This document shows, in pieces, positions 1 through 64,000 of a stretch of 64,000 bases of DNA; position 1 is the stretch's first letter; every line of letters begins with the position of its first letter. The DNA is from Agromyces intestinalis (lineage in GTDB: Bacteria > Actinomycetota > Actinomycetes > Actinomycetales > Microbacteriaceae), in contig NZ_CP043505.1 in the NCBI RefSeq assembly GCF_008365295.1, positions 1,240,001 through 1,304,000 of the forward strand. The letters run 5' to 3'. The notes under the pieces were generated by a model that worked only from the letters and a program-made list of their open reading frames with translations, ran no database searches and had not been told where the DNA came from. A program made the translations under genes and the position numbers.

Positions 1-235
1 GGGTGCACACGTGCACGACGTCGACATCGGCGATGAGGTCGTCGAGCGAGGCGTAGCCCTGCGACAGGCCGAGTCGCTCGGCCGCGGAGACGGATGCCTC
101 GGGGCTCGACGACGCCGCACCTTCGAGTGCGGCACCGGCCGCGCGCGCCGCCCGGGAGTGCACGGCGGCCATGAAGCCGCCTCCGACGAAGCCGGCACGC
201 AGCGTGCGGGCTCGGGCGCTGACATCCGTTGTCAT
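1..235 (-). CDS. Gfo/Idh/MocA family oxidoreductase (N-terminal part, runs off the left edge)
   Basis: This is the first 78 codons of an NAD(P)-dependent sugar- or inositol-type oxidoreductase; the rest lies outside the window. Read on the minus strand from ATG at 235, it has a Rossmann nucleotide-binding turn GFVGGGFMAAVHS at about residues 15-27. A helix and strand follow, and then DVDVVHVCTP at the very edge, where the family has its conserved strand ending in T-P. Family members oxidise sugars, sugar phosphates or inositols, but the substrate cannot be read from this fragment. It is divergent from the ROK regulator 116 bases away, which suggests a shared sugar-catabolic locus (inference). 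Confidence 0.8.
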   Translation of the reverse strand, partial: MTTDVSARARTLRAGFVGGGFMAAVHSRAARAAGAALEGAASSSPEASVSAAERLGLSQGYASLDDLIADVDVVHVCT

Positions 236-254
236 GGGCACATGGTGACACAGA

Positions 255-283
255 TTGCACAACTTCTGCCAGTGGTTCGGCAA
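255..283. promoter_or_regulatory. Imperfect inverted repeat between the oxidoreductase and the ROK gene
   Basis: TTGCACAAC and GTTCGGCAA form 9-base arms (7 of 9 positions match) around an 11-base spacer in the 116-base divergent intergenic region. ROK repressors commonly bind TTGC/GCAA-type palindromes in front of divergent sugar genes, so this is a plausible operator. It is a weak single site. Confidence 0.35.
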
Positions 284-351
284 AAGTCGCCCGTTTCGTG
301 ACATTGCTGTGATCAATGCCGTCTCGAAGTGCGTGTGCTTTACTCAGTGAC

Positions 352-60810: not shown

Positions 60811-61745
60811 TGTCCACCATCGGATCGTCCCCGCGCACCGCCTCGACGCCCACGCCGGCGCCCTCGCGGGGCGCGGATGCCTCGAATCGCACGCCGGCCC
60901 GGCGCCGCCGCTGGTGGGCGGAGGTCGGGTGGAAGTACCCCGTCGCCGCGGTCATCGTCTTCTACGCCGTGTTCCCGCTGCTGTACGTGGCATCCGCCTC
61001 GCTCAACCCCCGCGGCACCCTGTCGACCTCGAGCGCGCTGTTCAGCGCGTTCGACCTGTCGAACTACGCGGCCCTCGCGGAGACCCGCTACTGGACCTGG
61101 GTGGGCAACACGCTCATCGTGGGCAGCGTCGCGGCGGTCGGCGCCGTGCTGATGGGCGCCGCCGGGGCGTACGCGTTCTCGCGGTTCCGGTTCTCGGGTC
61201 GACGGGCGAGCCTCACGGGGTTGCTCATCATCCAGATGTTCCCGCAGGCGCTCGCGTTCGTCGCGATCTTCCTGATGCTGCTCACGCTCGGCGAGGTCGT
61301 GCCGGCGCTCGGGCTGAACTCGAAGATCGCGCTCATCTGCGTGTACCTCGCCGGCGCCCTCGGGGCGAACACGTTCCTCATGTACGGGTTCTTCAACACC
61401 GTGCCGATGGAGATCGACGAGTCGGCGAAGATCGACGGCGCCACGCACGCGCAGATCTTCTGGAAGCTGATCATCCCGCTCGTCACGCCGATCCTCGCCG
61501 TGGTGGGGCTGCTCGCCTTCCTCACCGCCTTCGGCGACTACATCCTCGCGAAGATCGTGCTGGTCTCGGAGGACAACTGGACCCTCGCGGTCGGCATGTA
61601 CCAGTGGGTATCGAACCAGCTCACCAGTCGCTGGGGACTGTTCGCGGCCGGCGCCGTGATCGCGGCGGTGCCCGTGCTGGTGCTGTTCCTCGCGCTGCAG
61701 CGGTACATCGTCGGGGGGCTCACCGCCGGGTCGGTCAAGGGATAG
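60810..61745 (+). CDS. ganQ: ABC transporter permease, MalG type
   Basis: A 311-residue permease with six helices. A Pro/Ala/Arg-rich cytoplasmic N-terminus is followed by WKYPVAAVIVFYAVFPLLYV. The EAA loop is MEIDESAKIDGATHAQIFWK. The C-terminal LFLALQRYIVGGLTAGSVKG is the typical MalG ending that reaches into the ATPase. ATG 60810 shares a base with the ganP stop (TGATG); GTG 60807 is an alternative. It works with the MalF-type partner. Confidence 0.92.
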   Translation: MSTIGSSPRTASTPTPAPSRGADASNRTPARRRRWWAEVGWKYPVAAVIVFYAVFPLLYVASASLNPRGTLSTSSALFSAFDLSNYAALAETRYWTWVGNTLIVGSVAAVGAVLMGAAGAYAFSRFRFSGRRASLTGLLIIQMFPQALAFVAIFLMLLTLGEVVPALGLNSKIALICVYLAGALGANTFLMYGFFNTVPMEIDESAKIDGATHAQIFWKLIIPLVTPILAVVGLLAFLTAFGDYILAKIVLVSEDNWTLAVGMYQWVSNQLTSRWGLFAAGAVIAAVPVLVLFLALQRYIVGGLTAGSVKG

Positions 61746-61760
61746 GTCGGAGAGGACACC

Positions 61761-64000
61761 ATGCAGACGACGAGGTCTGGACGGAGGGGCGCGCTCGCGG
61801 CCCTCATCGCGGCGGGGCTGGCGGGCGCCGGCTTGGCGGCACCGGCGGCGAGCGCCGCCGAACCCGACGACGGGCCGGTCGAAGCCGGGATCGTCGTGCA
61901 GAAGGTGGACGGGCTGCGCGACGACTTCGTCAACGGCGTGGATGTCTCGTCGGTGCTGTCGCTCGAGGAGTCGGGGGTGGTGTTCCGCGATGACTCGGGC
62001 GCGGCCGACCTCTTCGAGGTGCTCGCCGACCACGGCATCACCGACGTGCGCGTCCGGGTCTGGAACGACCCGTTCGACGCCGACGGCAACGGCTACGGCG
62101 GCGGCAACGTCGACGCCGATCGAGCGATCGAGATCGGCGAGCGGGCGACCGCCGCGGGACTCGGCGTGCTCGTCGACTTCCACTACTCCGACTTCTGGGC
62201 CGACCCGGCGAAGCAGCAGTCGCCGAAGGCATGGGCGGGACTCTCGATCGACGAGCGCGCCGACGCCGTGCACGACTTCACCGCCGACACGCTCGCGCGC
62301 ATGGTCGCCGCGGGCGTCGACGTCGAACTGGTGCAGGTCGGCAACGAGACGAACAACGGGGTCGCGGGCGTCAGCGGATGGCCCGAGATGGCGCGCATCT
62401 TCAGCGCCGGGTCGGCGGCGGTGCGCGAGACCGTGCCCGACGCGCTCGTCGCGGTGCACTTCACCAACCCCGAGACATCCGGCCGGTACGCGGGATACGC
62501 CGCGAACCTCGACCGGTACGGGGTCGACTACGACGTGTTCGCGTCGTCGTACTACCCGTACTGGCACGGCACGCTCGGCAACCTCACCTCGGTGCTGCGG
62601 CAGGTCGCGGACACGTACGGCAAGCAGGTGATGGTCGCCGAGACCTCGTGGGCGACCACGCTCGACGACGCCGACGGCCACGGCAACGTCATCGACCTGC
62701 CGAGCGAGGCGACGCAGTACCCGGTCAGCGTGCAGGGGCAGGCGACCGCGGTGCGCGACGTCATCCAGGCGGTCACCGACGTGGGCGACGCCGGTCTCGG
62801 CGTCTTCTACTGGGAGCCCGCCTGGCTGCCGGTCGGTCCGCCCTCGGCGCTCGAGCAGAACAAGCTGCTCTGGGAGGCGCACGGCTCGGGCTGGGCGTCG
62901 AGCTACGCCGGCGAGTACGACCCCGACGACGCCGGGCTCTGGTTCGGCGGTTCGGCGTGGGACAACCAGGCGATGTTCGCCGCCGACGGCACGCCGCTCG
63001 AGTCGCTGCGGGTGTTCGAGTACGCGCGCACCGGGGCGGTCGCGCCCCGCGAGGTCGTCTCGGTCGAGGCGGTCTCGATCACAGTCTCCGACGGCGACCC
63101 GGTCGTGCTGCCGGCGAGCGTCGCCGTGACCTACAACGACGGTTCGGTCGAGCAGGAGCCGGTCGCCTGGTCCGATGCGGCCGACTGGATCGACGGCGTC
63201 GGCACCTACCAGGTGCCCGGCCGCACCGCGGCGGGCCGCGACGTCTCGGCGACGGTTGCGGTGCAGCCCGTCAATCACCTCGCGAACCCCGGTTTCGAAG
63301 ACGCGGATGCCTCGATGTGGCAGCTCTCGGGCACGGGCGCGACGCTGCGTGCGACGGATGACCCGCGCACGGGCGAGCGGTCGACGCACTTCTACTCGGA
63401 CTCGGCGTTCGCGTTCACGCTGCACCAGCAGGTGACCGGGCTCGCGCCGGGACTCTACGAGGCATCCGCGTCGCTGCAGGGCGACGGCGAGGGCGACACC
63501 GGCACCGTCTCGATCACGCTGTCGACCGAGCCCGGCGGCAAGGCGGCCGCCGCGCCGTTCGCGCTGGACGGCTGGCGGAACTGGTCGACGCCGACGACCG
63601 GCGCCGTCGCGGTCGCCTCGGGCGACGCCGTGACGGTCGCCATCACCGCGACCCTGCCGGCCGGCGCGTGGGGCACGATCGACGACGTCGTGCTCGCCCC
63701 GGTCGCCGAGGCCGGGGCCGACACCGCGGCGCTCCGCGCCACCGCCGCCCGCGCCGACGCGATCGACCGCAGCGTCTACACCGAGGCATCCGTCGCGGTG
63801 CTCGACGAGGCGCGCGCGATCGCCGCCGTCGTCCTGGCCGCGTCCGCACCGACCGCCGAGCGCGTCGCCAGCGCGACCGCCCGGCTCACCGACGCGATCG
63901 CGGCGCTCGAACTCGCCGGCGAGGCTCCGCCGCCGACCGTCGCCCCGGCGACGCTGACGGTGCCGGACGGCGACCCCGTGCGACTGCCCGCGACCGTGCG
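61761..64000 (+). CDS. ganB: GH53 arabinogalactan endo-beta-1,4-galactanase, exported, multidomain (runs off the right edge)
   Basis: At least 746 residues are present. A signal peptide ends in [10 protein letters not shown]. The GH53 domain (about 45-400) shows [20 protein letters not shown], the acid/base Glu in [11 protein letters not shown] and the nucleophile in VMVAETSW. It is followed by a Big_4-type Ig module ([20 protein letters not shown]), a carbohydrate-binding-like beta module, a short helical FIVAR-like bundle ([20 protein letters not shown]) and the start of a second Big_4 module at the edge. It cuts galactan side chains of pectin outside the cell, feeding the transporter. ATG 61761 follows GGAGAGGACACC. 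Confidence 0.92.

Follow-up and report, generated by a model that had tools for sequence, protein, structure and literature searches.

We examined a 64,000-nucleotide stretch of the Agromyces intestinalis chromosome (the window; positions 1,240,001-1,304,000 in the one contig, of 3.80 Mb, of the genome labelled G000), in which the 11-base word CGGATGCCTCG recurs within and between genes. An earlier reading of the window from its letters (the sequence-only reading) had claimed 29 exact copies, 18 on the forward (+) and 11 on the reverse (-) strand, and a pattern search returned every one at the coordinate and on the strand given. Genic copies lie at 1128..1138 (+; identical in three of four aligned Agromyces loci), 6667..6677 (+), 12020..12030 (+), 22377..22387 (-), 29743..29753 (+), 31032..31042 (+), 31153..31163 (-), 39900..39910 (+), 41678..41688 (-), 42713..42723 (+), 44682..44692 (-), 51050..51060 (+) and 60874..60884 (+), with a further copy in the malate synthase gene (24127..24137, +) and three in a GH53 gene (63304..63314, +; 63458..63468, -; 63782..63792, -). 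Another, at 49878..49888 (-), falls in a short, low-scoring open reading frame (49765-50001). Intergenic copies were found at 91..101 (+), 26807..26817 (+), 32031..32041 (-), 40083..40093 (+), 40741..40751 (+), 50003..50013 (+; followed by a partial inverted copy) and 57785..57795 (-), and as the arms of two inverted pairs, 23564..23574 (+) with 23592..23602 (-), both of which are CGGATGCCGCG in locus L048, and 32727..32737 (+) with 32768..32778 (-).

The word was far commoner than expected. In 100 dinucleotide shuffles of the window, the mean was 0.22 copies and the largest count 2, against 29 observed. The whole contig holds 1102 copies, 558 on + and 544 on -, in line with the claim that neither strand dominates, and its reversed form, used as a control, occurs 0 times. 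G000 therefore carries a short over-represented word with its strands alike, as do genomes with the DNA uptake sequences (DUS) of Neisseriaceae or the uptake signal sequences (USS) of Pasteurellaceae. Further counts were made, unless stated otherwise, in an 864 kb sample of G000 consisting of the window and 40 further stretches, each of 20 kb, taken from all around the chromosome. This sample contained 263 exact words, where composition predicts 1.3 and a third-order Markov model 4.5, and the word stood 58-fold above expectation. The Markov expectation climbed to 31.8 at order 5 and 255 at order 8, because from order 5 upwards the word becomes part of the model. With counts far above low-order expectation, the word withstood the Markov comparison that the sequence-only reading had set for it.

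Although the over-representation of the 11-mer was upheld, the exact form is merely the commonest version of a fuller motif, CGGATGNNNCG, whose middle is mostly CCT, CCN or TCN. This motif occurs 4104 times in the genome, compared with 165 for its reverse, and 933 times in the sample against 154 expected. CGGATG is found at 1566 places, and CG follows at a spacing of three after 933 of these (60%), compared with 7-19% at other spacings. One-letter variants indicated that the ninth letter is free (A 75, C 100 and G 96 copies vs 2-8 expected) and the seventh and eighth partly tolerant. The first and last letters were less tolerant, with variants numbering 15-24 vs about 2 expected and up to 12 vs under 1 expected, respectively, and forms changed at the second, third or tenth letter were near chance. 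The flanks outside the word share little information.

From the forms enriched in G000, we defined as sites those copies of CGGATGNNNCG with the middles CCN, TCN, CTC, CTT, GCT or ACT. The sample holds 737 of them, or 0.85 per kb, and the set carries ~17 bits when scored by composition, its fixed letters being fixed by definition. Of these sites, 59 lie in the window, which has 83 copies of CGGATGNNNCG. Its variant sites include CGGATGCCGCG at 1540..1550 (-, intergenic) and, in genes, at 1885..1895 (+), 3013..3023 (-), 5963..5973 (-), 6786..6796 (+), 16410..16420 (+), 23167..23177 (+) and 54743..54753 (+). Also genic are CGGATGCTTCG at 6685..6695 (+), 10420..10430 (+) and 47587..47597 (-), CGGATGGCTCG at 11703..11713 (-) and CGGATGTCACG at 49377..49387 (+), and the malate synthase gene contains CGGATGTCGCG at 24750..24760 (+) and CGGATGCTCCG at 25277..25287 (-). 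CGGATGTCTCG forms an intergenic cluster of three (14731..14741, 14744..14754 and 14768..14778, all +) and recurs in a gene at 62471..62481 (-). CGGATGCCCCG is genic at 18849..18859 (+), 30478..30488 (-), 47203..47213 (+) and 59207..59217 (+) and intergenic at 51381..51391 (-) and 26850..26860 (-), the latter inverted relative to the exact word at 26807. Finally, CGGATGCCACG lies in genes at 28811..28821 (+) and 60986..60996 (-) and between genes at 34988..34998 (-) and 38407..38417 (+), and CGGATGACTCG is intergenic at 57743..57753 (-).

Genes were called with a simple codon model made for this analysis. By these calls, 205 of the 263 exact copies are genic, 57 are intergenic and one is on a gene edge; with intergenic DNA making up 12% of the sequence, the word is twice as dense there as in genes (0.55 vs 0.27 per kb). 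Synonymous codon shuffling within each gene predicted 5.6 genic copies against the 205 observed. The sequence-only reading had found copies in several reading frames, and this is so, but the frames are used unequally and two dominate: 119 of the genic copies encode xEAS on the opposite strand and 57 encode xDAS. Peptide tolerance thus shapes where copies are placed without being their cause.

To follow individual places over time, we compared G000 with G027, its closest same-genus genome by malate synthase (94%; 59 of the 60 genomes searched had a match, G000 included). The comparison covered 116 kb aligned at 89.3% identity and left uncounted six G000 sites that fell in alignment gaps. G027 retained 97 of 108 G000 sites as sites; among exact words, 42 of 44 were still sites, 31 of these being identical. 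Permuted cores with the same degenerate middle were retained in only 204 of 395 cases. When any middle was allowed, a control that is independent of choosing site forms enriched in G000, the word was kept in 128 of 141 cases and permuted cores in 975 of 1785, and none of the 45 permuted words with at least 15 cases exceeded 78% retention.

Divergence from G027 was 2.6% at the fixed letters, 11.0% in the flanks and 23% at the ninth letter (figures that use each species as reference, so that shared sites are counted twice). At the 69 of 108 sites lying in the two main frames, silent fixed letters had changed in 7 of 207 cases, compared with 17.3% at third codon positions elsewhere, and the ninth letter, which is amino-acid-changing in both frames, had changed in 9 of 69, compared with a background of 4-6%. 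At 25 intergenic sites, fixed letters had changed in 1 of 200 cases vs 11.5%. The frozen letters are therefore those of the DNA word and not of the protein, indicating that what is maintained is the word as DNA. Maintenance applies to double-stranded DNA, in and between genes and without regard to strand, and the letters on either side of the tolerant middle are strict. Such DNA-level maintenance with strict and tolerant positions, another property of DUS and USS, was visible against the sister genome G027 and invisible against the more distant G049 and G016.

Site orientation was neutral with respect to replication. Strand counts were even in both chromosome halves (211/198 and 164/164), and with the origin placed near 1.95 Mb, 362 and 375 sites faced the two ways, with no leading-strand bias, as is the case for DUS and USS. 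The origin was inferred from gene strands together with a weak GC skew; a short pattern did not find dnaA in the sampled stretches. The strong orientation bias with replication that marks Chi or FtsK orienting polar sequences (KOPS) was absent, and the even strand counts rule out a polarity of that type. Spacing was close to random with clusters, 20 kb bins being over-dispersed 2.3-fold, and even spacing was not found. Lack of orientation bias and of even spacing has been used as an argument against intracellular roles of uptake sequences (PMC1939737).

Neighbouring sites showed one further regularity. Among 84 neighbouring pairs within 60 bp, 55 pointed in the same direction, 26 were head-to-head (+-) and three had the opposite order. 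Half of the head-to-head pairs (13 of 26) were intergenic. Under stricter rules for intergenic DNA, 485 regions contained 11 head-to-head pairs, one of them between convergent genes. A terminator scan of one region holding a site pair called none at the pair.

Outside G000, the word was enriched in all 60 Agromyces genomes, with 58 to 1255 exact copies against 0 to 4 for the reversed control, and the G-form, CGGATGCCGCG, was likewise enriched in 60 of 60 (89 to 2553 copies). Genomes lean towards one form or the other: G035 has 1255 T-forms and 244 G-forms, and G030 has 340 and 2553, respectively. The window's malate synthase (23615-25312) shares 83-85% identity with Agromyces proteins and no more than 79% with those of other genera among the 80 loci kept. 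On a tree of this one gene for 41 of the 60 Agromyces genomes, dialect labels, assigned by majority and with near ties that include G049, G056, G015 and G038, changed 4 times; 500 shuffles averaged 12.8 changes and never gave fewer than 8. On this one-gene tree, the dialects follow phylogeny, as those of DUS and USS do. The word-poor Agromyces genome G040 sits on a long branch, has type IVa pilin matches and gives a weak TadA match (1.2e-74).

We then scored 249 Microbacteriaceae genomes for CGGATGNNNCG against the reversed control (genera and families are given by our own labels). In many genera, the motif was several-fold above control, although weaker than in Agromyces. Enrichment was low in g5, g36 and g52 (at most 1.4-fold) and in g46 (1.1-1.8), and several very small genomes (g11, g14, g16, g60 and g81) were near or below control, other small ones, such as g39, being enriched. 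Related forms appeared in the word-rich genera sampled: g7 has CGGATG(T/C)CGCG, and g80, g9, g85 and g77 have CGGATGCCG, in which the 3' CG is weaker. No comparably enriched word was found in two sampled small-genome relatives, G263 (g14) and G238 (g60). In an order-wide draw of 327 genomes, all 28 Microbacteriaceae were above control, by about 3.2-fold or more, and the other families were mostly not, by a reading of the table, with f4 and f7 as exceptions. In these two families (g104 and g91; e.g. G418 and G462), CGGATGNNNCG numbered 432 vs 61 reversed and 565 vs 123 reversed, an excess that may reflect related words or codon effects.

The sequence-only reading had suggested looking for competence and pilus genes, and both kinds are present in G000, as in genomes with DUS or USS: comEC adjoins comEA, and there are two tad clusters. 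One cluster (L128:6502-11127) encodes TadA, two T2SSF proteins, TadE and further Tad-like proteins, and the other (L129:6065-9091) encodes TadA, a T2SSF protein, an 81-residue Flp-like protein and TadE-like proteins. The T2SSE model found two ATPases above its cut-off, both TadA-like and one per cluster. The type IVa pilin model PF07963 had no match in G000 at E 0.001, although a model of 27 positions could miss divergent pilins; a Neisseria-type arrangement, a type IVa pilus with a ComP-like minor pilin, was thus not seen in G000. Among the five Agromyces genomes drawn, PF07963 likewise had no match in G053, G054 and G057, and it matched in G040, which had the lowest word count of the five. 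Across 207 genomes of at least 2 Mb (124 with and 83 without the pilin), type IVa pilins bore no relation to word strength (p 0.41), and a link between the word and type IVa pili was rejected.

Since comEC is near-universal in the family (245 of 249 genomes), its presence is uninformative as a test and counts as weak evidence. The tad-1 cluster was more variable. A search with its TadA was bimodal: 177 genomes had matches of at least 1e-70 strength, the other 72 had either no match or one weaker than 1e-56, and none fell between; G040 and G220 (1.7e-72) were counted as positive on weak matches. Median CGGATGNNNCG enrichment was 4.1 with tad-1 and 2.1 without it across all 249 genomes, and 4.7 (148 genomes) vs 2.2 (59) once the 42 genomes smaller than 2 Mb had been excluded. 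Genus means in these larger genomes were 5.1 with tad-1 (53 genera) and 2.9 without (24; p 0.0002), and the genera g5, g36, g46, g52 and g15 lack tad-1. Across the family, word strength and the tad-1 cluster are thus correlated, though imperfectly and by statistics that ignore phylogeny. Ten genera were mixed for tad-1: g7, g32 and g54 agreed with the correlation (the tad-less g54 genome being incomplete, at 1.8 Mb), g74 and g78 disagreed, g82 was neutral and the four with small genomes gave no information. Word enrichment exceeded 4-fold in eleven genomes of at least 2 Mb that lack tad-1. A recent loss of tad-1 followed by slow decay of the word would explain some of these exceptions.

These observations show that selection or drive maintains the word in a genome that also has Tad and Com genes. 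Likeness to a DNA uptake sequence, which the sequence-only reading had proposed and which is supported in part, is the best-supported interpretation of the pattern. Strand neutrality, the density of 0.85 sites per kb, phylogeny-following dialects, strict and tolerated letters, and com and pilus genes all favour the likeness; the pilus differs from that of Neisseria in being Tad/Flp and not type IVa. On this basis, CGGATGNNNCG is probably a genome-wide recognition word of the uptake type in Agromyces, with weaker dialects in other Microbacteriaceae. A candidate surface DNA receptor of the competence machinery, either a component of the Tad/Flp pilus, such as a tad minor pilin, or ComEA, would bind the word, and word-carrying DNA would enter through ComEC and then recombine. 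Recombination would restore intact words at existing places, let new words spread and favour DNA from kin, because word-bearing fragments would be taken up more often. We consider the chances about even for the more specific proposal that the word, in its species dialects, serves the family as a whole and has a Tad/Flp component or ComEA as its reader, in a DUS-like Gram-positive form of self-recognition that would have evolved independently of Neisseria and Pasteurellaceae.

The known systems offer partial parallels. Well-known uptake sequences come from two Gram-negative families, and the density of USS in Haemophilus influenzae is similar to that of the Agromyces word. Neisseriaceae DUS, which are read by the minor pilin ComP, are strand-neutral, over-represented short words whose dialects follow phylogeny and whose strict core is accompanied by tolerated positions (PMC3630211), features that the Agromyces word shares; its genome also resembles theirs in having com genes and a pilus that belongs to the type IV filament superfamily. 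In contrast, the Agromyces host is a Gram-positive, high-GC bacterium with an unrelated word, and G000, which is known here from its sequence alone, has a Tad/Flp pilus and no type IVa pilin match. In copy number (about 1300 in H. influenzae) and in the occurrence of inverted pairs, which in that species are also found in terminators, the word resembles Pasteurellaceae USS (PMC5217627), whereas sequence and host are unrelated and the Agromyces inverted pairs are not concentrated between convergent genes. The closest counterpart to the machinery is the Flp/Tad-dependent transformation of Micrococcus luteus, which requires two tad clusters, and the combination of tad with comEA and comEC homologues is reported to be frequent in Actinobacteria (PMC4322843). 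G000 likewise has two tad clusters and comEA/comEC homologues, and its Flp and TadF N-termini resemble by eye those of M. luteus (PMC6370729); the term 'uptake sequence' is absent from the main text of the M. luteus transformation study (PMC4322843). We take Rhodoluna lacicola and Aurantimicrobium photophilum to be members of the Microbacteriaceae. Both have been reported to be naturally transformable (PMC11577799).

Several results weigh against the uptake reading. At ~78% identity, fewer aligned G000 sites were retained as sites (2 of 17 in G049, 3 of 19 in G016, 8 of 17 in G035 and 7 of 14 in G030), and the fixed letters were no better kept than the flanks in G049 (26.1 vs 25.1% diverged) and G016 (25.5 vs 25.5%), although they were slightly less diverged in G035 (18.2 vs 20.9%) and clearly less in G030 (13.4 vs 24.6%). 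Across nine named Agromyces loci, 17 of 47 site pairs were sites in some dialect, and 9 of 47 were identical (19%), compared with 24% for control words. The pattern is what one would expect of a word that is spread over the genome and changes its places, more than of regulatory places that stay fixed; conservation of single places is supported over the distance to the sister genome G027. Site density was the same in sequence shared with G027 as in unaligned sequence (1.04 vs 1.06 per kb), so that no enrichment in core sequence was found. Density was also about 1.5 times higher in the origin half of the chromosome than in the other half (1.01 vs 0.69 per kb, p 0.002), which uptake alone does not predict, and the two density results together do not favour uptake over an intracellular reading. 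The link to the machinery is uneven as well: the tad-1 comparison ignores phylogeny, and of six mixed larger-genome genera, three agreed, two disagreed and one was neutral; seven tad-1 genomes of at least 2 Mb were below 1.8-fold; some larger tad-1 genomes (g17 and g33) were little enriched; and the small-genome relatives G263 and G238 have comEC and tad-1 yet no comparably enriched word. The tad-1 minor pilins looked alike by eye in word-rich and wordless genomes. When minor pilins were sought with a simple pattern in 21 tad-1 loci, they were present in 15 and absent from six, three of these word-rich and three word-poor, a lack of difference that led us to reject minor-pilin presence as a pointer to the receptor.

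Part of this evidence bears equally on intracellular explanations. The word might be iterated within the cell like the cyanobacterial highly iterated palindrome (HIP1), kept by the action of a DNA methyltransferase, or of repair or recombination, on the word and independently of uptake. HIP1 is likewise a short word over-represented genome-wide, its role is debated, and it has been linked to orphan methyltransferases (PMC4390886). The strand-neutral, DNA-level over-representation would be the same under this explanation, and relatives that have com and tad-1 but lack an enriched word would be less surprising; however, HIP1 is palindromic (GCGATCGC) and methyltransferase-linked, and the Agromyces word is asymmetric, with a tolerant middle and species dialects. 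We consider such an origin unlikely, though it is the alternative to which we give most weight. Somewhat less likely still is a binding site for a chromosome-organising or nucleoid protein. The higher density in the origin half speaks for it, the more so as four control words were flat between the halves, but site density also rises with GC (rho 0.54), and the origin trend may therefore reflect accessory DNA. Spacing that is near random with clusters, and not even, and the turnover of places between distant Agromyces genomes are further points against such a site. A Chi-like recombination signal would also be short, non-palindromic and genome-wide; the missing leading-strand bias (362 vs 375 sites) and a 58-fold excess, above the over-representation known for Chi, make it improbable.

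Two simpler explanations fare worse. Mobile repeats or parts of transcription terminators could account for the predominance of head-to-head pairs (26 vs 3) and for half of these pairs being intergenic, where 12% of the DNA lies. However, the little sequence shared beyond the word rules out a larger repeat or mobile element, only one of the 11 intergenic pairs lies between convergent genes, which does not support termination as the main role, and a minority of the 737 sites are paired at all. We therefore regard this explanation as very unlikely; the pairs may have a side role as terminators. Least credible of all is a by-product of codon-pair or peptide preference for Asp-Ala-Ser and Glu-Ala-Ser, the explanation that, if full, the sequence-only reading had named as refuting its claim. 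The xEAS and xDAS contexts of 119 and 57 of the 205 genic copies are what it would predict, but synonymous shuffling yields merely 5.6 copies, intergenic density is double the genic density, and the silent letters of the word are frozen where the amino-acid-changing letter varies. Shuffling and the frozen silent letters together rule it out as a full explanation.

If the uptake interpretation holds, an actinobacterial family with dialects of one word would add a case that is independent of the Gram-negative ones and linked to another kind of pilus. The word, its receptor and recombination could be tested in these soil bacteria, which would help to decide between self-recognition and a by-product of receptor bias as the source of such words. 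Should the interpretation fail, a long motif at 0.85 sites per kb under DNA-level selection or drive still needs explaining. Among the open-licence papers listed in literature searches, no earlier description of the word was seen, which is not proof of its absence.

Some observations stand beside these results. The form CGGATGCTCCG, whose ends are complementary (CGGA...TCCG), has 48 copies against 2.2 expected. Short tandem arrays of the word and its variants, in steps of 9 or 18 bases, occur at L128:573-660 (G000 near 3,347,600) and at G000 565,555-565,754. The former encodes PEAS-type repeats at the N-terminus of a protein that we take, from its appearance, to be RNase PH.

Within the window, a 2019-residue protein with bacterial Ig-like (Big_9) domains is encoded at 14791-20850 (-), near a transglutaminase-like protein at 9820-12360 (-). 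A 24 kb piece of the window had no match among phage records. The sole Rfam match in the window at the gathering threshold is a tRNA gene at 54256-54328 (-). Between 55674 and 63998 (+), genes for a GH42 beta-galactosidase, a solute-binding protein, an ABC permease and the GH53 galactanase are grouped, and this segment is likely a locus for galactan use.

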